A program made the translations under genes and the position numbers. The notes beneath the pieces were generated by a model. That model saw nothing but the letters and a program-made list of their open reading frames with translations, had not been told where the DNA came from and searched no databases. A stretch of DNA of 64,000 bases from Streptomyces cyaneochromogenes. GTDB lineage: Bacteria > Actinomycetota > Actinomycetes > Streptomycetales > Streptomycetaceae. Positions 3,997 through 59,455 of the stretch are shown one piece after another. Each line of letters starts with the position of its first letter. Positions within the stretch are counted from its first letter, which is position 1. The DNA lies in assembly GCF_003963535.1 (NCBI RefSeq), contig NZ_CP034539.1:868001-932000 (forward strand). Direction: 5' to 3'.

Positions 3997-4181
3997 CCGC
4001 GCCCACGGAGGAGCAGACGCTGTCGGCGGAGTGCACGCTGGGGCAGCGGCCCGGGTACGAGGACACGCACGACCTGTGCAGGCAGACCAAGGACGTACCG
4101 CTGCCCTACTCCAACGGCGTGCTCCTCGTGCGCCGTTGCAGGTGTGCGTGCCACGTTCACCGGAGCCTGGCGGCGCAGTAG
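3993..4181 (+). CDS. Small Cys-rich protein
   Basis: A 62-aa product whose ATG at 3993 overlaps the previous TGA, arguing for translational coupling; the in-frame upstream ATG at 3963 would lie inside the previous gene and is rejected. Cysteines occur in AECTLG, DLCRQ and CRCACH, with neighbouring His residues, suggesting a metal-binding fold. A strong hairpin follows 12 nt after the stop. The function is unknown. Confidence 0.65.
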   Translation: MTAPTEEQTLSAECTLGQRPGYEDTHDLCRQTKDVPLPYSNGVLLVRRCRCACHVHRSLAAQ

Positions 4182-4193
4182 CCCGGACAGACC

Positions 4194-4228
4194 GAACCCC
4201 CGCCGGTGAAGCGACCCGGCGGGGGTTC
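4194..4228. terminator. Intrinsic terminator, probably bidirectional
   Basis: GAACCCCCGCCGG (4194-4206) pairs perfectly with CCGGCGGGGGTTC (4216-4228) across a 9-nt loop. It lies between the rightward Cys-rich pair and the leftward recombinase operon, where a shared terminator would be expected. Confidence 0.75.
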
Positions 4229-4284
4229 GTCGTGTGCGTGGTGGGGTCAGGTTCGGCGCCTCAGCAGGGCGAGGCGGAACGGCG

Positions 4285-4401
4285 TCAGCACGGGACGCTG
4301 AGGGGCCGTCTCCGGTCGCGCGCCGCTGGCCAGCAACCGGCGAGCTGGGCTCCGAGTTCGGCCGCCTGAGCGCCGTACAGGGGCTCTCGGATGTCGGTCA
4401 T
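4285..4401 (-). CDS. 38-residue protein coupled to the GIY-YIG gene
   Basis: The ATG at 4401 overlaps the GIY-YIG stop as ATGA, and the frame (MTDIREPLYGAQAAELGAQL, then a Trp/Arg-rich tail) ends at 4285. Length is marginal, but coupling and codon use support translation. A second in-frame stretch beginning at a GTG that overlaps this stop would encode only 14 residues (LTPFRLALLRRRT); a frameshift between the two could have split a longer original protein. Function unknown. Confidence 0.4.
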   Translation of the reverse strand: MTDIREPLYGAQAAELGAQLAGCWPAARDRRRPLSVPC

Positions 4402-4703
4402 GACGTCTCGTCCTTCCGGCCGTTAAAGATCACGTTGTAGCGCGGGCGCTCGGTGCGCACGGCTTCGCGTTCGGCCGCCTCGGCGTCGTCGGGGTATTCG
4501 ATGCGGATGGCGAGGACTTGGGACCCCCAGGGCTTCTCCCGCAGATGGGTGCGTATGCGCGTGAGCGGGCTGACCGAGATGCCGATGTAGAGCAGACCTT
4601 CCAGGCCGTACAGGCGGTACAGCGCCGTGCGGCCGTCGGCGAAGAGGCTGCCCCCGTCCTGGTCGAACAGGCCGAGCAGGAACTGTGTGTCGATGGCGGT
4701 CAT
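4398..4703 (-). CDS. GIY-YIG domain protein
   Basis: A 101-aa protein. The segment LYRLYGLEGLLYIGISVSPL matches the GIY-YIG signature (LYRLYG then YIGIS), followed by TRIRTHLREKPW and an Arg/Glu-rich helix with AAEREAVRTERPRYN, in the order seen in compact GIY-YIG nucleases. It may nick or cut DNA, or only bind it. It starts with ATGA overlap on the recombinase stop and ends overlapping a micro-ORF. Its coupling to the integrase suggests a job in integration, excision or exclusion, which is inference. Confidence 0.75.
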   Translation of the reverse strand: MTAIDTQFLLGLFDQDGGSLFADGRTALYRLYGLEGLLYIGISVSPLTRIRTHLREKPWGSQVLAIRIEYPDDAEAAEREAVRTERPRYNVIFNGRKDETS

Positions 4704-10735: not shown

Positions 10736-12166
10736 TCAGGCAGGCAGGCGGAAGTTGAGGTTGCGCAGCGCCGAGGGCGTCGTACCGCTGGACTTCTCCT
10801 GGTACATGATCGACAGGAAGTGGTCCTGGCCGACGCGCGTCTCGTCGATCACGACCTCGCCGAAGGCGTTCAGCCCGGCGGTGACACCGTCGTACAGCAC
10901 CGCCCAGTCCGTGTACCCGGAGGCCTTGGAGGCTGCGGCTATGCGACAGAACGGGAAGATCGCGTACGCGTTGTCGTACTTGTCCAGAATCAGCTTGGTG
11001 CGCTGGCTGGAGTTCAGCGGAACCGGGATCTCCGCCTTCTGCCATGCCCCCGAGGAGTTCTTGCGCACGTGGAAGGCGCGGCCGTTGGCGGTGCGGTCGG
11101 CGACGTAGTTGGTGGTGCACTGGCCGAACCGGCCGGGGACGTAGCTGATGATCGCGTGCGGCAGGCCGGCGGAGTCGGTGAACTGGCTCTCCTGGTTCAT
11201 CAGGGAGTGGTCCGGGTTGAGTGCGTCGATCACCAGCCCGCTGTCGGTGACGGCGACCTTGTCGGAGCCGCCGGTGGTGCCGACGACGGAGCCGGCGTTG
11301 TTGCGCCAGGTGCGACCGCGGTCGTCGGAGTAGACGTAACCGGTGTCGTGGTTGGTGATCCCGCCGCTGGAGCACATCACGGCGCCGTTCTGCTCACGCC
11401 AGGTGAAGAACGAGTGCAGGCGGCCGTTCCTGTCGTAGTCGATGCCGTGCAGGTACATGTTGCGGGCGGTCGAGGAGCCGTGCTCGCTGGTGTACGTCCC
11501 GGTGGAGCTGCTCCACTCGCCGAGGTTGGTCCAGGTCGAACCGTCGTACTCGGCGAGGGCGTTGCGGCCGTTGCCGGAGACGGCGACCCGGTAGCTGAGC
11601 TGGAGCCTGCCCTCGGGGGTGGAGACGAACTGCGGGTAGGTGAACTGCGAGGTGAGGGCGAGGCCGTCCATCGTGGACTGCGGGGCGCCGAAGCGGCTCG
11701 CGACCCAGCTCAGGCCGGCCGGGTTGTCCATCAGCCCCGCGACCGACTTGACGTAGGTGAAGCCGTCGCTGTGCGAGTCCATGTTGAGGTGGAGGCGCCC
11801 GTCGACCTTGGACATCCCCATCGAGATGACGTTGTGGGAGTCGTTGTAGCGCAGGGTGTGGCCGACCTTGACCGTGGACCAGGTGGTGGAGCCGAGGACG
11901 CGGCGGCCCACGACGGCGTTGCGGTCGGCGGTGTACCAGACTGCGTACTGGTAGCCCTTGTAGGTCAGCAGGCCGTTCTTCTGGAAGGCGTTGTTGTTGA
12001 CCAGGCCGTCGTACGACACGAAGAAGATGGCCTGGGTGTCGAGGGTGGTGGTGCCCGTCAGGGTGAGGGACGGGCCGGGGTCGGCGGCGCGTGCGGTACC
12101 CGAGGCGAGGGCGGGGGTCATCACGGCTCCTGCGAGGGCGGCGCCCAGCAGCGTACGTCTTTTCAT
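10736..12166 (-). CDS. Tat-exported BNR-repeat protein, candidate polysaccharide lyase or glycosidase
   Basis: A 476-aa protein with a twin-arginine signal (MKRRTLLGAALAGAV, cleavage after about residue 27, ATARA-like) and a BNR_4-type beta-propeller body; an Asp-box is seen as SDDRGRTW. BNR_4 proteins include ulvan lyases and rhamnose-alpha-1,4-glucuronate lyases; the rhamnose operon context makes cleavage of a rhamnose-uronate linkage attractive, but no catalytic residues can be assigned by eye. The ATG at 12166 has AGGAG 8 nt upstream. It lies 23 nt after the mutarotase stop, inside the importer operon, which is unusual for a secreted enzyme. Confidence 0.75.
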   Translation of the reverse strand: MKRRTLLGAALAGAVMTPALASGTARAADPGPSLTLTGTTTLDTQAIFFVSYDGLVNNNAFQKNGLLTYKGYQYAVWYTADRNAVVGRRVLGSTTWSTVKVGHTLRYNDSHNVISMGMSKVDGRLHLNMDSHSDGFTYVKSVAGLMDNPAGLSWVASRFGAPQSTMDGLALTSQFTYPQFVSTPEGRLQLSYRVAVSGNGRNALAEYDGSTWTNLGEWSSSTGTYTSEHGSSTARNMYLHGIDYDRNGRLHSFFTWREQNGAVMCSSGGITNHDTGYVYSDDRGRTWRNNAGSVVGTTGGSDKVAVTDSGLVIDALNPDHSLMNQESQFTDSAGLPHAIISYVPGRFGQCTTNYVADRTANGRAFHVRKNSSGAWQKAEIPVPLNSSQRTKLILDKYDNAYAIFPFCRIAAASKASGYTDWAVLYDGVTAGLNAFGEVVIDETRVGQDHFLSIMYQEKSSGTTPSALRNLNFRLPA

Positions 12167-24575: not shown

Positions 24576-25240
24576 GCAGCAGGGAACGGATCCTGGGCCG
24601 GGTGCGGCGCGCGCTCGCCGACGTACGCCAGGACGAGCCGTCGTACGACCAGGCGGTTCCCCGCGACTATCTGCGCGAGCACGGGGACCGGAGCGTCGGG
24701 GAGACGGTCGACCTGCTGGCCGAGAACCTGGCGGACTACCGGGCCGTCGTGCATCGGTGCACGGCCGAGGACCTGGCGGCGACGATCGCCGGGATGCTGG
24801 CCGCGCGGGGCGCGAAGACCGTGCTCGTGCCGCGCGGCCTGGACCTGGAGTGGCTTCAGGCCACCGACGCCGAGCGGATTGCGGACCGGGCGGAGAGCAC
24901 CGCGCACGAGCTGGACCAGGTCGACAGCGTGGTCACGGCGTGCGCGGTGGCGGTCGCCGAGACCGGCACCATCGTGCTGGACGGCGGCCCCGACCAGGGC
25001 CGTCGCCGCATCACGCTCGTCCCCGACCACCACATCTGTGTCGTACGGGTCCCGGACCAGGTCGTCTCCTCCGTCCCGCAGGCCCTCGAACGCCTCGACC
25101 CGGGCCTCCCATTGACGTGGATCTCCGGTCCGTCGGCGACCAGCGACATCGAGCTGGACCGGGTCGAGGGGGTGCACGGTCCGCGCACCCTGGAAGTGGT
25201 GCTGGTGGGCGGTCAGTCGAGCGCGGACGTCACCTCGTAG
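24572..25240 (+). CDS. lutC: L-lactate oxidation complex subunit C
   Basis: A 222-aa LUD-domain protein (VAETGTIVLDGGPDQGRR; LVPDHHICVV; ISGPSATSDIE) typical of LutC. The GTG start overlaps the lutB stop. Its 3' end overlaps the convergent GH78 gene by 28 nt. Placing lutABC right after rhaB allows L-lactate made by RhaD to enter pyruvate metabolism. Confidence 0.92.
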   Translation: MSSRERILGRVRRALADVRQDEPSYDQAVPRDYLREHGDRSVGETVDLLAENLADYRAVVHRCTAEDLAATIAGMLAARGAKTVLVPRGLDLEWLQATDAERIADRAESTAHELDQVDSVVTACAVAVAETGTIVLDGGPDQGRRRITLVPDHHICVVRVPDQVVSSVPQALERLDPGLPLTWISGPSATSDIELDRVEGVHGPRTLEVVLVGGQSSADVTS

Positions 25241-28200
25241 CGGCCGGACGGGAGTCGGTAGGCGGCGATGCCGTCCGCGAAGCCCAGGTACTCGACTCCC
25301 TCGACCCGGGAGAGGGGGGTGCGGCCCTCGCGGACCGTCGACGGGTCGGCGGTGGGGATGCTCAGGGTCGCGGTCGTGTTCGCGGGTACCACGGCCCGGT
25401 AGGTCAGCTTCCGGTCGTCCGTCTGCCACTTGCTGACGATCTCGCCGTACGGCGAGAGATGCGAGCCGGCCACCCGCGTGACCTTGCCGGTCGGGTCGAG
25501 GTGGGGCCTGAGGAAGAAGTGCCGGAAGCCCGGGTGTTCCGGGTCCTTGGCGATGCCGGCCATGCCCTCGTACATCCACTCCATGATCGCGCCGTAGGAG
25601 TAGTGGTTGAACGAGTTCATGTCGACCGGGCCGAAGCCGTCCTCCTTCGAGTACGAGTTCCACCGCTCCCAGATGGTGGTGGCGCCGTTGCGTACCGAGT
25701 ACAGCCAGGACGGCATGGCGTCCTGGTGGAGCAGCCTGTACGCCAGGTCGGCGCGGCCCTCGTCGGTGAGCACCGGGGCGAGGACGTTCACGCCGAGGAA
25801 GCCGACGGAGAGGGTGTTCTCGGCGTACTTCACGCGGGTGCTGTCGGGGTGGGCCTGCTTGTAGGCCTCGTCGTTGCCGATGTTCTCGGCGAGTGACAGC
25901 ACGAGCCGGCGGCGCTGGGCCTCGGTGTCGTAGAGGCCGAGCTTGAGGACCCAGAGCAGGGCGGTCTGGCTGTTGTCCTCGGGCTTGCCGCCGGTCCACG
26001 GCGGTGCCTCGCCCAGGCTGGAGCGGACCGTGACCTCGCCCGTGGCGGGGTCGGTGACGAGGTACTTGGCGACGAAGGCGCGCTTGATGCGGGAGAAGAG
26101 CTCGTCGTAGTCGCGGGCCTCGTCTTCGCGGCCGGTGGCGCGGGCCATGCCGGCCATGAGGCGGGTGCTGTAGCCGTAGTAGGCGTCGCTGATGAGCTGG
26201 GTGCTGGTGACCTGGAACGCCAGCCAGTCGCCGAAGATCGCGCCCTGTCCGGCGTAGCTGTCGCCGGTGCGCCGGCGTATCCAGTCCAGGTACTTCTTCA
26301 TCGCGGCCCAGCTGCGGTCGATGATCGTGGTGTCGCCGGACATCTGCCACACCGTCCACGGCACGACCACGCCGCAGTCGGCCCAACCGCTCGCCGGAAC
26401 CGGCTGGTTGTAGCGGGAGCCGGGGGCCACCCAGGTGAACTGGGCGCCGTCCTGTCCGTATGTCTTCTGTGAATCGATCAGCATGTCCTCGAAGTGGCTG
26501 AGGAAATTGACCGTATCGGCGTTGTAGAGGCCGGTGTTGCAGAACAGCTGGGTGTCGCCCGTCCAGCCGAGGCGTTCGTCGCGCTGGGGGCAGTCGGTGG
26601 GGGCCCAGAGATAGTTGCCGCGCTGGCCCCAACGGACGTTGCTGATCAGCTGGTTGATGTCGGCGTCGTCCGTGGTGATCGTGCCGATGTCGCGGAGGGC
26701 GGAGGTGGCGACCCTGCCGGTGAACCCGGTGAGGGTGACGGTGTCGGTCGCGGTGGCGGAGACGTAGCGGAAGCCGTAGAAGGTCAGCGAGTCCTCGTGG
26801 GTCTCGCCGTCGGGGTCGCCCCTGAGGATGTAGGTGCTGGTGGCCTTGGCGGCGCGGAGGTTGGCGCGGTAGACCGAGCCGACGGGGCCGTCGGCGCCCG
26901 CGCTGGCGTCGTTGAGCATCTCGCCGGGCTTGAAGGTGACTTGGGCGCCCGCCGGGCCGCGCAGCGTGTAGCGGGGAACGCCGACCATGTTCTGGCCGAG
27001 GTCGATCACGGCGGTGTCACCGGGGCGCAGGGTCACGGCGGCGGTGGCCGCGGCGGCCGGGTCGGTGACCGTGCGGGCGGTGTCGACGACGATGCGACCC
27101 TTGTCGTTGGGGCTGCCCTCCTGGCCGCTCACGCCGGTGTAGACGGTGAGGGAGTGCGGCTTGCGGTCCCAGTCCGGCACCAGTCGGGCGCTCTCACCGG
27201 GGTGGGCGACCAGCTTCGCGTCGGGGAACCTGGAGGTGTGGTCGTGTGTGGTCACGCCCGCCCAGGCTGACGTGTCGAAGCCGTTCGCCGTCCAGCCCGG
27301 GAGTTCCGCGCGGGCGTCGTAGGTCTGCCCGTCGTAGATGTCGTCGGCGCGGTAGGGGCCGGTGTCGGTGGCCTTCCACTCGTCGCCGGGTGCGGTGACG
27401 ATCGTCTGCTCGGATCCGTCGGCGTACCGGACGAGGAGCTTGGCCTTGAGGGCCAGGCGGTTGCCGTCGGCGGAGTAGTAGGTGCTGTTGTCGGAGACAC
27501 GGCCGTTGTACCAGCCGTTGCCGAGTACGGCGGCCATGGTGACCTGGTCTTGGTGCCGCTCCCCCGCGACCAGGTCCGTGACGTCGTAGGTGAAGTAGTC
27601 GACGGTGCTGTCGTAGTTGGTCCAGCCCGGCGTGAGCAGCTCGTGGGTGGCCGCGTCGCCCTGCGGGACCGTGACCCGGTGGCCGTTGATGTGGGCCTCG
27701 TACACGCCGAGGGCGGAGATGTAGAGCCGGGCGTCGCGCACTCGGCGTCCCGTCAGCCGGGTCTGCCGGCGCAGCAGCGGGGCGCCGGGGGTGTTGGGCC
27801 GCTTGCCGGCCATGGCGATCCACTGGGCGCCGTCCCAGCCGGTGACGCCGTCGGTGGAGAGGAGGCCGGTCTCGAAGTGGGCGGTCGCGGCGGCGGGGAC
27901 GGGGCGGCCGGTCTCGTCCCAGGCCGTCACCGTCCAGTGGTAACGGGTGGACGCTTCGAGGGCGGGGCCCTTGTAGCGCAGGGCGATCGAGTCCGGTGAA
28001 GTGACGCGGCCGCTGTTCCAGACGTCCGCCCGGGAGGGCGTCAGGCGGTCGGGTGCGGTGGCGACGAGGATCCGGTACGCCGACTGGCGGCGGCCGCGTA
28101 CCGAGGACGCCATGCGCCAGCCGAACCTCGGGTGAGCGGCGTCCACGCCAAGGGGGTTCGTTCTGTGCTCGACCGTCAGGCCCTCGACGGCGGTGCGGTG

Positions 28201-28338
28201 CGGGGCCGGTGCCGCCGAGGTGGGCCCGCCGCCCGCGATCCCGGCCGCCATGGCCAGGGGCGCGACGCCCAGTGCCGTGGTGAGCACCGTCCTGCGAGGC
28301 ACCCCGTCGCCCTTCGTGCTGTCGACTCCGTCATTCAT
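25213..28338 (-). CDS. Tat-exported alpha-L-rhamnosidase, GH78
   Basis: A 1041-aa secreted enzyme with a twin-arginine signal (VPRRTVLTT, then an Ala/Gly-rich core ending near residue 43). Order: N-terminal beta domains (NPLGVDAAHPRFGWRM is the GH78 start hallmark), then the rhamnosidase catalytic (alpha/alpha)6 domain with CPQRDERLGWTGD near 580-595 containing the catalytic Glu, and a C-terminal beta domain. It should release terminal alpha-L-rhamnose outside the cell. It is convergent with lutC and has a LacI-type operator upstream, tying it to the rhamnose regulon. Confidence 0.93.
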   Translation of the reverse strand: MNDGVDSTKGDGVPRRTVLTTALGVAPLAMAAGIAGGGPTSAAPAPHRTAVEGLTVEHRTNPLGVDAAHPRFGWRMASSVRGRRQSAYRILVATAPDRLTPSRADVWNSGRVTSPDSIALRYKGPALEASTRYHWTVTAWDETGRPVPAAATAHFETGLLSTDGVTGWDGAQWIAMAGKRPNTPGAPLLRRQTRLTGRRVRDARLYISALGVYEAHINGHRVTVPQGDAATHELLTPGWTNYDSTVDYFTYDVTDLVAGERHQDQVTMAAVLGNGWYNGRVSDNSTYYSADGNRLALKAKLLVRYADGSEQTIVTAPGDEWKATDTGPYRADDIYDGQTYDARAELPGWTANGFDTSAWAGVTTHDHTSRFPDAKLVAHPGESARLVPDWDRKPHSLTVYTGVSGQEGSPNDKGRIVVDTARTVTDPAAAATAAVTLRPGDTAVIDLGQNMVGVPRYTLRGPAGAQVTFKPGEMLNDASAGADGPVGSVYRANLRAAKATSTYILRGDPDGETHEDSLTFYGFRYVSATATDTVTLTGFTGRVATSALRDIGTITTDDADINQLISNVRWGQRGNYLWAPTDCPQRDERLGWTGDTQLFCNTGLYNADTVNFLSHFEDMLIDSQKTYGQDGAQFTWVAPGSRYNQPVPASGWADCGVVVPWTVWQMSGDTTIIDRSWAAMKKYLDWIRRRTGDSYAGQGAIFGDWLAFQVTSTQLISDAYYGYSTRLMAGMARATGREDEARDYDELFSRIKRAFVAKYLVTDPATGEVTVRSSLGEAPPWTGGKPEDNSQTALLWVLKLGLYDTEAQRRRLVLSLAENIGNDEAYKQAHPDSTRVKYAENTLSVGFLGVNVLAPVLTDEGRADLAYRLLHQDAMPSWLYSVRNGATTIWERWNSYSKEDGFGPVDMNSFNHYSYGAIMEWMYEGMAGIAKDPEHPGFRHFFLRPHLDPTGKVTRVAGSHLSPYGEIVSKWQTDDRKLTYRAVVPANTTATLSIPTADPSTVREGRTPLSRVEGVEYLGFADGIAAYRLPSGRYEVTSALD

Positions 28339-56667: not shown

Positions 56668-57591
56668 ATGCGCATCTTCGTGACCGGCGCGTCCGGCTGG
56701 CTCGGCTCCGCCCTCGTTCCCGAACTCATCGACGCGGGCCACCAGGTCGTGGGGCTCGCCCGCTCCGACGCCTCCGCCGCCACCCTCACCTCCGTCGGGG
56801 CCGAGGTGGTGCGCGGCACGGTCGACGACCTCGACGTCCTCGGCAGCACCGCCGCCGTGTCGGACGGGGTGGTCCACCTCGCCTTCAAGCACGACCTCGC
56901 CTTCACCGGCGACTACCGGGGCGCCGCGGAGGCCGACCGCCGCGTCGTCGACACCTTCGGCGACGCGCTCGCCGGCACCGACCGCCCGTTCGTCGTCGCC
57001 TCCGGCCTGATCGGCATGAAGCCGGGGCAGGTGGCGACCGAGCGGGACATGCCCACCATCGACGGCTCACCGACATCCATCCGCTCGGCCACCGCCACGG
57101 CGGCCCTCGCACTGGCCGCGCGCGGTGTGCGCTCGGCCGTGGTGCGGCTCGCTCCGACCTGCCACGGCGAAGGCGACAACGGATTCATGGCGACCCTCGT
57201 CGCCATCGCCCGCGCCAAGGGTGTCTCCGGTTATCTCCGCGACGGCGCGAACCGCTGGCCCACCCTCCACCGCCTCGACGCCGCACGGCTGTTCCGCCTG
57301 GCGGTCGAGAAGGCCCCCGCGGGATCCGTACTGCACGGAGCCGCGGAGGAGGGTGTCGCGATCCGCGACATCGCCGAGGCGATAGGCCGTCACCTCGGTG
57401 TACCGGTCACCTCGGTGGCCCCCGAGGCCGCCGCCGAACACTTCACCTGGCTGGGCGCCCTCCTCGGACTCGACACCCCGGCATCGAGCGCGCTGACCCG
57501 CGAGCTGCTCGACTGGCACCCGACCAACCCTGGCCTCCTGGAAGATCTGGACAAGGGCCACTACTTCGCCACGGCTGCCGACGCCCACTGA
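56668..57591 (+). CDS. NAD-dependent epimerase/SDR-type oxidoreductase
   Basis: A 307-aa extended or atypical SDR. MRIFVTGASGWLGSALVPEL holds the dinucleotide-binding loop. There is no clear YxxxK; ATATAALALAARGVRSAVV occupies that region, as in atypical SDRs. The ATG at 56668 directly follows the second operator. Probably induced when the TetR ligand is present. Substrate unknown. Confidence 0.82.
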   Translation: MRIFVTGASGWLGSALVPELIDAGHQVVGLARSDASAATLTSVGAEVVRGTVDDLDVLGSTAAVSDGVVHLAFKHDLAFTGDYRGAAEADRRVVDTFGDALAGTDRPFVVASGLIGMKPGQVATERDMPTIDGSPTSIRSATATAALALAARGVRSAVVRLAPTCHGEGDNGFMATLVAIARAKGVSGYLRDGANRWPTLHRLDAARLFRLAVEKAPAGSVLHGAAEEGVAIRDIAEAIGRHLGVPVTSVAPEAAAEHFTWLGALLGLDTPASSALTRELLDWHPTNPGLLEDLDKGHYFATAADAH

Positions 57592-57745: not shown

Positions 57746-57770
57746 CTTGCGGACAGAAACTGTCCGCAAG
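57746..57770. promoter_or_regulatory. Operator-like perfect inverted repeat
   Basis: CTTGCGGACAG (57746-57756) and CTGTCCGCAAG (57760-57770) flank AAA. It lies just upstream of the NmrA-like gene, over its -35 region. HxlR- or MarR-type repressors bind sites like this, but no such gene is near. Confidence 0.65.
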
Positions 57771-57788
57771 CCCCCCTACGTTCGCCCC

Positions 57789-58640
57789 ATGACCCAGACA
57801 CAGGCACAGGCACAGAAGATCCTTGTCACCGGCGCCACCGGAACCGTCGGCCACCAGGTCGTCGTCGAACTGCTCGCCCGCGGCCACGCCGTCCGCGCCC
57901 TCACCCGGGATCCGGCGAAGGCCGACCTCCCGGCCGGCGTCGAGGTCGTCCAGGGCGACCTGACCGAACCCGACAGCCTGATTCCGGCCCTGGACGGCGT
58001 CACCGGCCTCCACCTGATCACCTTCGGCGGCCCCTACTTCGCCCCGCTGGAGGCCGGCCCGCGGATCCTCCAGCTGGCCCGCGCGGCCGGCGTACGCCGG
58101 GTCACCGTGCTGCACGGTGGCGGGCCGTCGCTCCTGGAGGACGCCGTACGGGCGGACGACGGGGTGGACTGGACCGTACTCATGCCGGTCGAGTTCATGG
58201 CCAACGCCTTGGAGTGGACGGAAGGGATCCTGACGTCGGGCGAGGTCCGCGAGCCGTTCGTCTCCCGGCTCAGCGCCATGGTCCACGAGGGCGACATCGG
58301 CGCGGTCGCCGCGGTCGCGCTCACCGAGGAGGGGCACGGGGGTCAGGAGTACGTGATCACCGGACCCGAACTGCTCACCGTCGCCGACAAGGTGACCACG
58401 ATCGCCGACGCCCGCGGCCGGGAGATCTCCCTGGTCGAACTGACCGAGGAGCAGGCCGTCGAGCAGTGGCGGGCGGCGGGTCACCCGGAGGACGTGATCG
58501 GCTTCCTGCTCGAGGCGTACGGCAACACCCCGGAGGTGGGCCGCACGGTGGTCGACACCGTTGAGAAGATCACCGGCCGACCGGCCCGCACTTTCGGCCA
58601 GTGGGCCGCGGAGCACGCGGGTGCCTTCAAGGCCCAGTAG
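57789..58640 (+). CDS. NmrA-like NAD(P)H-binding oxidoreductase
   Basis: A 283-aa protein with the Rossmann loop VTGATGTVGHQVV (about 12-24) and NmrA features (ALTRDPAKADLP, VEVVQGDLTEPDSL). It may be an azo/quinone reductase or redox sensor. The ATG at 57789 lies 7 nt after TACGTT (57777-57782), so it is probably a leaderless transcript; no SD is present and an upstream ATG is not plausible. The inverted repeat at 57746 controls it. Confidence 0.83.
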   Translation: MTQTQAQAQKILVTGATGTVGHQVVVELLARGHAVRALTRDPAKADLPAGVEVVQGDLTEPDSLIPALDGVTGLHLITFGGPYFAPLEAGPRILQLARAAGVRRVTVLHGGGPSLLEDAVRADDGVDWTVLMPVEFMANALEWTEGILTSGEVREPFVSRLSAMVHEGDIGAVAAVALTEEGHGGQEYVITGPELLTVADKVTTIADARGREISLVELTEEQAVEQWRAAGHPEDVIGFLLEAYGNTPEVGRTVVDTVEKITGRPARTFGQWAAEHAGAFKAQ

Positions 58641-58795
58641 GGCAGGGTCACGCCGAAGTCCCGGTGCGCGGCGGCGGGGGCGGACGCGGAAGGTCCACAA
58701 CAGGTGACCACCGCGTCCGCCGGCCACGAACGGGAGACGTTCGGTGATCATTCGCATACCCTGCGGAGTTGTCGCCGACGCGTAGGGAGAAGCGT

Positions 58796-59455
58796 ATGGA
58801 CTCGGGCAGGCGTCAGTTCCTCGGCAGGTGGGGCGCGGTGGTGACGGGAGTCGCGGCGCCGTTCGCCCTCCCTGGCCAGGCATTCCCACAGAGCCATACC
58901 CACCCGGACCTCGAAGCCGGTGCGACGACCACTGCCCCGGACCCGCAGTCCGGCAGCGGCACCCGCACCGGCTCCGGTCACGAAAGGTTCATGTGGCTGG
59001 CCATCGCGCAGGCCCGACGCAACCCCAAGTGGCCGTTCGGCGCGGTGATCGTCGGCACCCGCGGCGGCGAGGTGCTGGGGAGCGGGGTCAACACCGGGGC
59101 GGACAGCCCACTGCTGCACGGGGAAGTGGTCGCGATGAACGACTACGTCCGCCGGCAGGGCAACCAGGGCTGGGCCGACACCACGCTCTACACGACGGGT
59201 GAGCCCTGTTCGATGTGCATGAGCGCGCTGGCGTGGGCCAATGTGCGGCGCGTCGTCTGGGCAAGCTCGATCGACGAGATCCGCAGCACCGACATCATCC
59301 AGATCGACCTGACCGCACGGGAGGTGGCCGCCGCGGCCCGGTCCTTCTACACCCCGCAGCTGCTCCTGGGCGGCGTGCTGGCCGAGCACACGAACCACCT
59401 CTTCCGAGAGGCCCAACGGCTGCGTGAGAGGTTCCCGGACGCGTCAGCGGTCTAG
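58796..59455 (+). CDS. Tat-exported nucleoside/cytidine-deaminase-like protein
   Basis: A 219-aa zinc deaminase of the CDA/guanine-deaminase superfamily with a twin-arginine signal (SGRRQFLGRWGAVVTGVAAP, residues 3-22). The zinc motifs are HGE (108-110) and PCSMC (137-141); the first is HGE, not the usual HAE. The TGEPCSMCMSALAWANVRRV block resembles GuaD-type deaminases. Exporting a folded zinc enzyme by Tat is plausible; substrate outside the cell might be a purine base. AGGGAG is upstream of the ATG. It stands alone. Confidence 0.83.
   Translation: MDSGRRQFLGRWGAVVTGVAAPFALPGQAFPQSHTHPDLEAGATTTAPDPQSGSGTRTGSGHERFMWLAIAQARRNPKWPFGAVIVGTRGGEVLGSGVNTGADSPLLHGEVVAMNDYVRRQGNQGWADTTLYTTGEPCSMCMSALAWANVRRVVWASSIDEIRSTDIIQIDLTAREVAAAARSFYTPQLLLGGVLAEHTNHLFREAQRLRERFPDASAV

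Follow-up and report, generated by a model that had tools for sequence, protein, structure and literature searches.

To our knowledge, most characterised deaminases of the CDA superfamily act either cytoplasmically or within target cells. A gene in a 64,000-nucleotide stretch of the Streptomyces cyaneochromogenes chromosome (hereafter the window; 868001-932000 of a one-contig 10.68 Mb genome) encodes a protein of this superfamily that begins with an apparent twin-arginine signal, and it raises the question of whether such an enzyme is exported and, if so, on what it would act. The reading frame with its coordinates, the RRQFLG motif and the HGE zinc motif, on which the original prediction of a nucleoside deaminase exported by the Tat pathway was built, are all present in the sequence. 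In the protein, an N-terminal MDSGRRQFLGRWGAVVTGVAAPFALPGQAF region is joined by a loose linker to a deaminase domain of ~150 residues (Table 1). Automated ORF listing places the first codon of the frame at a TTG at 58769; the ATG is the start common to the orthologs, and GAGG-type sites are found at about the same position upstream of 14 further Streptomyces loci.

Table 1. Features of the deaminase gene, in positions of the window. Exported rows are the 36 signal-bearing rows of the tree described in the text.
Feature	Positions	Strand	Remarks
Exported deaminase gene (predicted export)	58796..59455	+	219 aa plus stop; ATG at 58796, stop 59453-59455
AGGGAG ribosome-binding site	58784..58789	+	Read in the sequence; 6 bases before the ATG
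Twin-arginine signal region, residues 1-36	58796..58903	+	RR at 58808-58813; hydrophobic part from residue 12
Low-complexity linker, residues 37-59	58904..58972	+	Length varies in orthologs; pLDDT block means 43-50
Catalytic deaminase domain, residues 60-212	58973..59431	+	PF00383; confident model
Asn99, expected substrate-binding Asn	59090..59092	+	N in 33/36 exported rows, V in 3 HSE rows
H108-G109-E110	59117..59125	+	H and E in 36/36 exported rows; G in 33, S in 3
P137-C138-S-M-C141 (PCSMC)	59204..59218	+	C138 and C141 in 36/36 exported rows

The sequence GRRQFLG is followed, from position 12, by 26 residues free of D, E, K and R, in agreement with a Tat motif; the cleavage site is uncertain, GQA-F at residue 29 being one candidate. 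The Tat system suits proteins that fold and take up a cofactor such as zinc in the cytoplasm, and a TatC gene is present in the genome. A simple Tat rule is passed by 22 of 20000 shuffles of residues 2-45. The RR motif says little by itself, since the same rule is passed by 5 of the 55 called genes of the window, the deaminase included, when any start codon may supply the N-terminus; the case is carried by the orthologs. Two more genes of the window, at 10739-12166 and 25216-28338 (both on the minus strand), have Tat-like N-termini. The deaminase does not reach the cut-off of the NCBIfam model TAT_signal_seq (TIGR01409; 12.1 vs 16.7 bits), and 10 of 27 family members are matched by this model when E values up to 1 are admitted.

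Among 15 Streptomyces copies, 13 begin with MD[SA][GCD]RR and one with VDSSRR; the remaining copy (L061), from a S. chartreusis megaplasmid, begins with MDSDGR and has lost the first Arg. RR is therefore kept in 14 copies, as is Phe8, Leu9 is kept in all 15, and between 41 and 64 residues precede the HE motif. In these copies the signal codons are under purifying selection: codons 2-12 have a pN/pS of 0.34, close to that of the catalytic domain (0.29), and the hydrophobic codons 13-22 one of 0.67. A true start downstream of the Arg pair had been named as a danger to the prediction, and in-frame GTG codons at residues 15-16 could serve in principle. Such a start is disfavoured by the conserved Arg pair ahead of it, the conservation of which would then have no reason.

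The signal recurs in distant relatives. A search with short patterns taken from the window protein, which favours close relatives, gave 30 loci: 14 from Streptomyces (one of them, L013, frameshifted), 3 distant ones, and 13 other signal-bearing members from Photorhabdus, Erwinia mallotivora, Pseudomonas, Reyranella, other alphaproteobacterial MAGs, Tsukamurella and a Chitinophagia MAG, whose N-terminal signals were judged by eye on start codons that we chose. The Reyranella family (61 genomes) contributed 17 matches, i.e. 7 repeats, 9 new members and 1 fragment. With the labels ‘exported’ and ‘noSP’ assigned from the N-termini prior to the tree, a phylogeny of 55 domains, rooted by midpoint only, contains a 37-row group (support 97/90) made up of all 36 signal-bearing rows and the signal-less L056, which sits on a long branch. 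Thirty of the signals have RR, five have KR (L076, L078, L079, L080 and L081) and one (L026) has a Sec-like stretch with neither pair; automated scoring gave 31/4/1, because in L079 it counted a later pair. A Glu interrupts the hydrophobic stretch of L083. AxA cleavage sites are seen in several distant members (e.g. ARA-A in Reyranella), and none is clear in the window copy.

Kept off the tree were the frameshifted L013 and L059, the broken or partial frame L028, two fragments (L052 and the G1489 match), the very long branches L029 and L034, a near-copy of L057 (L058), further Streptomyces copies (L037, L060 and L061), other paralogs or loci that were not parsed (L066-L069), and repeats (L031, L035, L036, L050, L053-L055, L062-L064, L070-L075 and L085-L087).

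The export label changes twice on the tree, which fits one origin and one loss in L056. A single origin is not proved by this, because the exported rows stand alone on one side in only 6% of 200 bootstrap trees. Export seems to be an ancient property that has been kept. The nearest outgroup is signal-less and consists of 12 proteins of an actinobacterial family (f18) together with L051, the joining of L051 with f18 being weakly supported (81/35). For f18, the signal was scored as absent from the frames of all 12 proteins and from gene calls for 7 of them. At three of these loci (L040, 1489-2840; L041; L043) the deaminase gene begins within the 3′ end of an epimerase-like gene upstream of it, presumably TIGR01777/YfcH-like, so that there is no room for a signal.

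PF00383 matches the catalytic domain at 69.4 bits (cut-off 25, E 2.6e-19) and places the protein in the CDA superfamily; PF14437 (MafB19-deam) is also above its cut-off (41.8 vs 27 bits), with PF00383 scoring higher over the same region. H108, E110, C138 and C141 are invariant in the exported rows. We take H108, C138 and C141 to be the zinc ligands, E110 to be the proton-shuttle Glu and Asn99 to be the substrate-binding Asn. Judged on these residues, the protein should be a working hydrolytic deaminase, without the known marks of guanine or cytosine enzymes.

HGE in place of HAE, which the original prediction had singled out, turns out not to distinguish this protein. It is found in 11 of the 12 signal-less f18 cousins, in one paralog of the same genome (the GuaD-like L063) and, by alignment with the PDB sequence, in yeast cytosine deaminase; its presence in L063 also means that it is not diagnostic of the yeast type. 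Conversely, three signal-bearing members (L082, L083 and L084) have HSE for HGE and Val for Asn99, and this branch perhaps reflects a substrate switch. The prediction is thus supported in part: Tat export is backed by a signal conserved across groups and by the TatC gene of this genome, and a special meaning of HGE is not. Other positions separate the exported rows from f18: residue 135 (G in 30 of 36 vs A in 12 of 12), residue 139 (S in 27 of 36 vs P in 12), residues 142-143 (mostly MS vs [SA]G), and N115, Y117 and G122. Relative to the TadA-like and GuaD-like paralogs, the loop from Asn99 to His108 lacks two residues in the window and L021 rows and likewise in the one f18 row compared.

An AlphaFold2 model was built from 27 aligned sequences (mean pLDDT 80.4, pTM 0.71). 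Block means of pLDDT are at least 90 (90-97) for residues 61-100, 111-160 and 171-210, and lower for residues 101-110, which hold HGE (77), for residues 161-170 (85) and for the first 60 residues (43-51). The top Foldseek match is TadA (2nx8, E 9.3e-11) and so is that of VIA-align (2b3j, Z 21.0, rmsd 1.8, 143 aligned), followed by guanosine deaminase (20.0), NE0047 (19.6), yeast cytosine deaminase (19.2) and Msd (18.5). Since these Z values differ by only about 2.5, the fold does not choose the substrate. Sequence comparisons with the PDB are similarly divided, the best profile match being the guanine deaminase 1wkq (E 1.4e-18) and the best single-sequence match TadA 2nx8 (E 1.9e-12).

None of these enzymes provides an identity for the window protein. 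It shares with TadA, the tRNA adenosine(34) deaminase, the fold and the HxE and PCxxC zinc site, and differs in having an export signal; a signal-less TadA-like protein (L062) is also encoded in the genome, and the score against NF008113 (44.3 bits vs an equivalog cut-off of 150) rejects the assignment. With yeast cytosine deaminase (FCY1) it shares HGE and similar LYTT..PCxMC surroundings, and it departs from that enzyme in its shorter loop before HGE and its export signal. GuaD enzymes have a substrate-binding Asp after strand 4, and yeast cytosine deaminase has a C-terminal Trp..Asp clamp. This clamp is absent (window, L021 and L040 rows; 27 aligned C-termini), which rejects a yeast-type cytosine deaminase. 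The GuaD guanine deaminase and the plant guanosine deaminase resemble the protein as the best PDB profile match and by the second-ranked Z value, respectively; residue 161, at the GuaD-Asp position, is variable, mostly G or E, with Asp in 2 of 36 exported rows, and GuaD was rejected as well. The GuaD-type Asp is present in the GuaD-like L032 and L057, in an alignment by sequence only. Because neither the GuaD Asp nor the yeast clamp has a conserved counterpart, no known substrate can be assigned. Both yeast cytosine deaminase and BsGD are dimers, according to an excerpt of PMC8256712. Defence models of the dCTP-deaminase type give weak matches only (24.5 bits vs a cut-off of 400, and another of 21.3 bits), and a defence system was set aside.

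PF00383 detects 8 loci in the genome, one of which (L066) escaped the motif pattern. The 7 that were read have HAE, HGE, HPE or CAE motifs, and only the window protein has a signal by eye. The paralogs include L063, with a guanine-deaminase-type look, and L065, with a yeast-cytosine-deaminase-type look and W-N-E-D at the clamp position. As these two are signal-less, the cytoplasm seems already served.

The gene neighbourhoods were for the most part assessed by eye; Pfam scans covered five proteins, two deaminases among them. Among genes called by a simple script, few of which were scanned, no neighbour is common to all Streptomyces loci, and the gene neighbours gave no hint of the substrate. 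Flanks are shared by subsets (L003, L006 and L010; L007 and L011). In the window, two NAD-binding epimerase/NmrA-type genes (56668-57591 and 57747-58640) lie upstream on the same strand as the deaminase gene; the NmrA-like one recurs directly upstream in L009 and clusters with those in L004 and L011. In Reyranella relatives, a gene for a DUF2165 membrane protein (PF09933) precedes the deaminase gene in 8 of 39 loci, a count in which L073 repeats L023 and the L022 match is partial. It lies just upstream in L018, L020, L021, L023, L077 and L081, with stop/start overlap in several. Beside the Photorhabdus member (L015:4577-5740, minus strand) is a gene for a two-cupin protein with a Tat-like start, oxalate decarboxylase-like by eye. 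Near the signal-less L056 (2226-2999, minus strand), a gene product resembles by eye the enzymatic chain of ADP-ribosylating toxins.

To determine how widely the gene occurs, we sampled genomes by group and scored the best first-look candidates (9 to 15 per genome), with the centre genome included in each count. In Streptomyces, 6 of 199 genomes have a match at E values up to 1e-30, one of them broken (G007, L059). Across the phylum the count is 14 of 246 at 1e-25, and 12 of the 14 are of the signal-less f18 type. Three of 321 genomes in the class of Erwinia match, two of them through the signal-less L051 and the fragment L052; the class of Reyranella (1 of 289) and the family of Pseudomonas spelaei (1 of 198) yielded the centre genome itself, and the family of Photorhabdus (2 of 198) added L056 to its centre genome. 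Outside the Reyranella family the gene is rare and patchily distributed. Frameshifted copies in two Streptomyces genomes (L013, about 4001-4620, and L059) indicate that it can be lost. Horizontal transfer is suggested by the tree, in which the Streptomyces rows join Reyranellaceae (96/92) rather than Tsukamurella. Carriage by phages or plasmids was considered and rejected, with just one plasmid record (S. chartreusis, 75%) and distant viral matches (one phage at 36.8% and two viral contigs at 32-33%). The member genera are soil and host-associated bacteria.

We consider the protein to be, with a probability of roughly 0.57, a zinc-dependent hydrolytic deaminase that is exported by Tat and acts, for salvage or detoxification, on a free base, nucleoside or similar small amino-heterocycle. 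An enzyme from the TadA/guanine deaminase/yeast cytosine deaminase side of the superfamily would fold with its zinc in the cytoplasm, and the Tat system would carry it across the membrane in this state. On the outer side, the zinc would be held by H108, C138 and C141 and the proton moved by E110, while Asn99 and the backbone at G109 would hold the ring, and the substrate would lose its amino group as ammonia. The likely benefit would be salvage of, or protection from, exogenous bases or their analogues in soil and hosts, and the ammonia set free may be of use as well. The purifying selection on the signal codons, the TatC gene and a cytoplasm that seems served by other deaminases speak for this reading. 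It is preferred because the conserved signal and the zinc site coincide in one clade of 97/90 support, and because the protein is a single small domain with neither a delivery domain nor a common Streptomyces neighbour. A small-molecule substrate is favoured since the model fits small-molecule deaminases nearly as well as TadA. Counted against it are the fact that TadA, the best fold match, is an RNA enzyme, the TAT_signal_seq score, the lost Arg of L061, the two frameshifted copies, the signal-less L056 and the absence of an Arg pair in L026.

The same exported enzyme might instead act outside the cell to disarm an antibiotic or secondary metabolite that neighbouring organisms make and that bears an exocyclic amino group. 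The scattered, rare distribution with broken copies, the soil and host-associated habitats, the lack of a match to the substrate residues of known enzymes and the divergent HSE/Val99 branch, which suggests a change of substrate, all speak for this. The zinc motif and Asn99 are nevertheless those of ordinary base deaminases, and by eye none of the inspected neighbours looks like a resistance or biosynthesis gene; we regard an antibiotic or other metabolite as a rather unlikely target. Nucleic acids, attacked outside the cell or in a target cell by a stand-alone effector resembling polymorphic toxins, are a still more doubtful one. Polymorphic toxins evolve fast, unlike the slowly evolving catalytic domain here (pN/pS as above); PF00383 outscores the MafB19-deam model, Pfam finds overlapping deaminase models only in the 219 aa, and no immunity-like neighbour is common to the Streptomyces loci as far as these were called and scanned. 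A nucleic-acid target is made less likely by the conserved domain and the missing delivery domain, against which stand the above-cut-off match to MafB19-deam, the TadA-like fold and the use of deaminases as toxin modules described in parts of PMC3482391.

Finally, the protein could be an ordinary cytoplasmic deaminase whose N-terminus has been extended by chance or forms a signal that does not function, as might be argued from the sub-threshold TAT_signal_seq score, the 5 in 55 window genes with a Tat-like start, the lack of a clear AxA site in the window copy and the signal-less L056. This is very improbable given that RR persists in nearly all Streptomyces copies beside a linker of varying length, and that distant members have signals too, several of them with AxA sites.

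An extracellular AMP deaminase is reported from Streptomyces murinus. Among the matches listed in a literature search that covered few subscription journals, no title or abstract opening dealt with a Tat-exported or stand-alone secreted bacterial deaminase of this kind, and in the available portion of a S. scabiei secretome study (PMC4098958) ‘deaminase’ occurs once, for arginine deaminase. The secreted AID/APOBEC-like deaminases of fish (SNADs) likewise combine a deaminase fold with a signal peptide, which 26 of 38 SNAD1 proteins have according to extracts of PMC11004436; they are eukaryotic, belong to the AID/APOBEC branch and do not use Tat. Polymorphic toxins carry deaminase domains out of the producing cell (PMC3482391, in part), whereas the window protein is a lone domain behind a signal, with no delivery domain and no immunity partner seen.

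That the export signal is retained in different phyla suggests selective worth in a deamination that takes place outside the membrane. A more speculative and rather unlikely extension is a dedicated extracytoplasmic deaminase family spread horizontally among soil and host-associated bacteria of two phyla, perhaps a third (one MAG), that would disarm or harvest amino-bearing base analogues, including nucleoside-type antibiotics, before their entry, the HSE/Val99 branch acting on another substrate. The clade offers a small set of enzymes, of HGE/Asn99 and HSE/Val99 types, for a substrate search, and the protein is a concrete candidate for an enzyme that inactivates drugs or bases extracellularly in soil.
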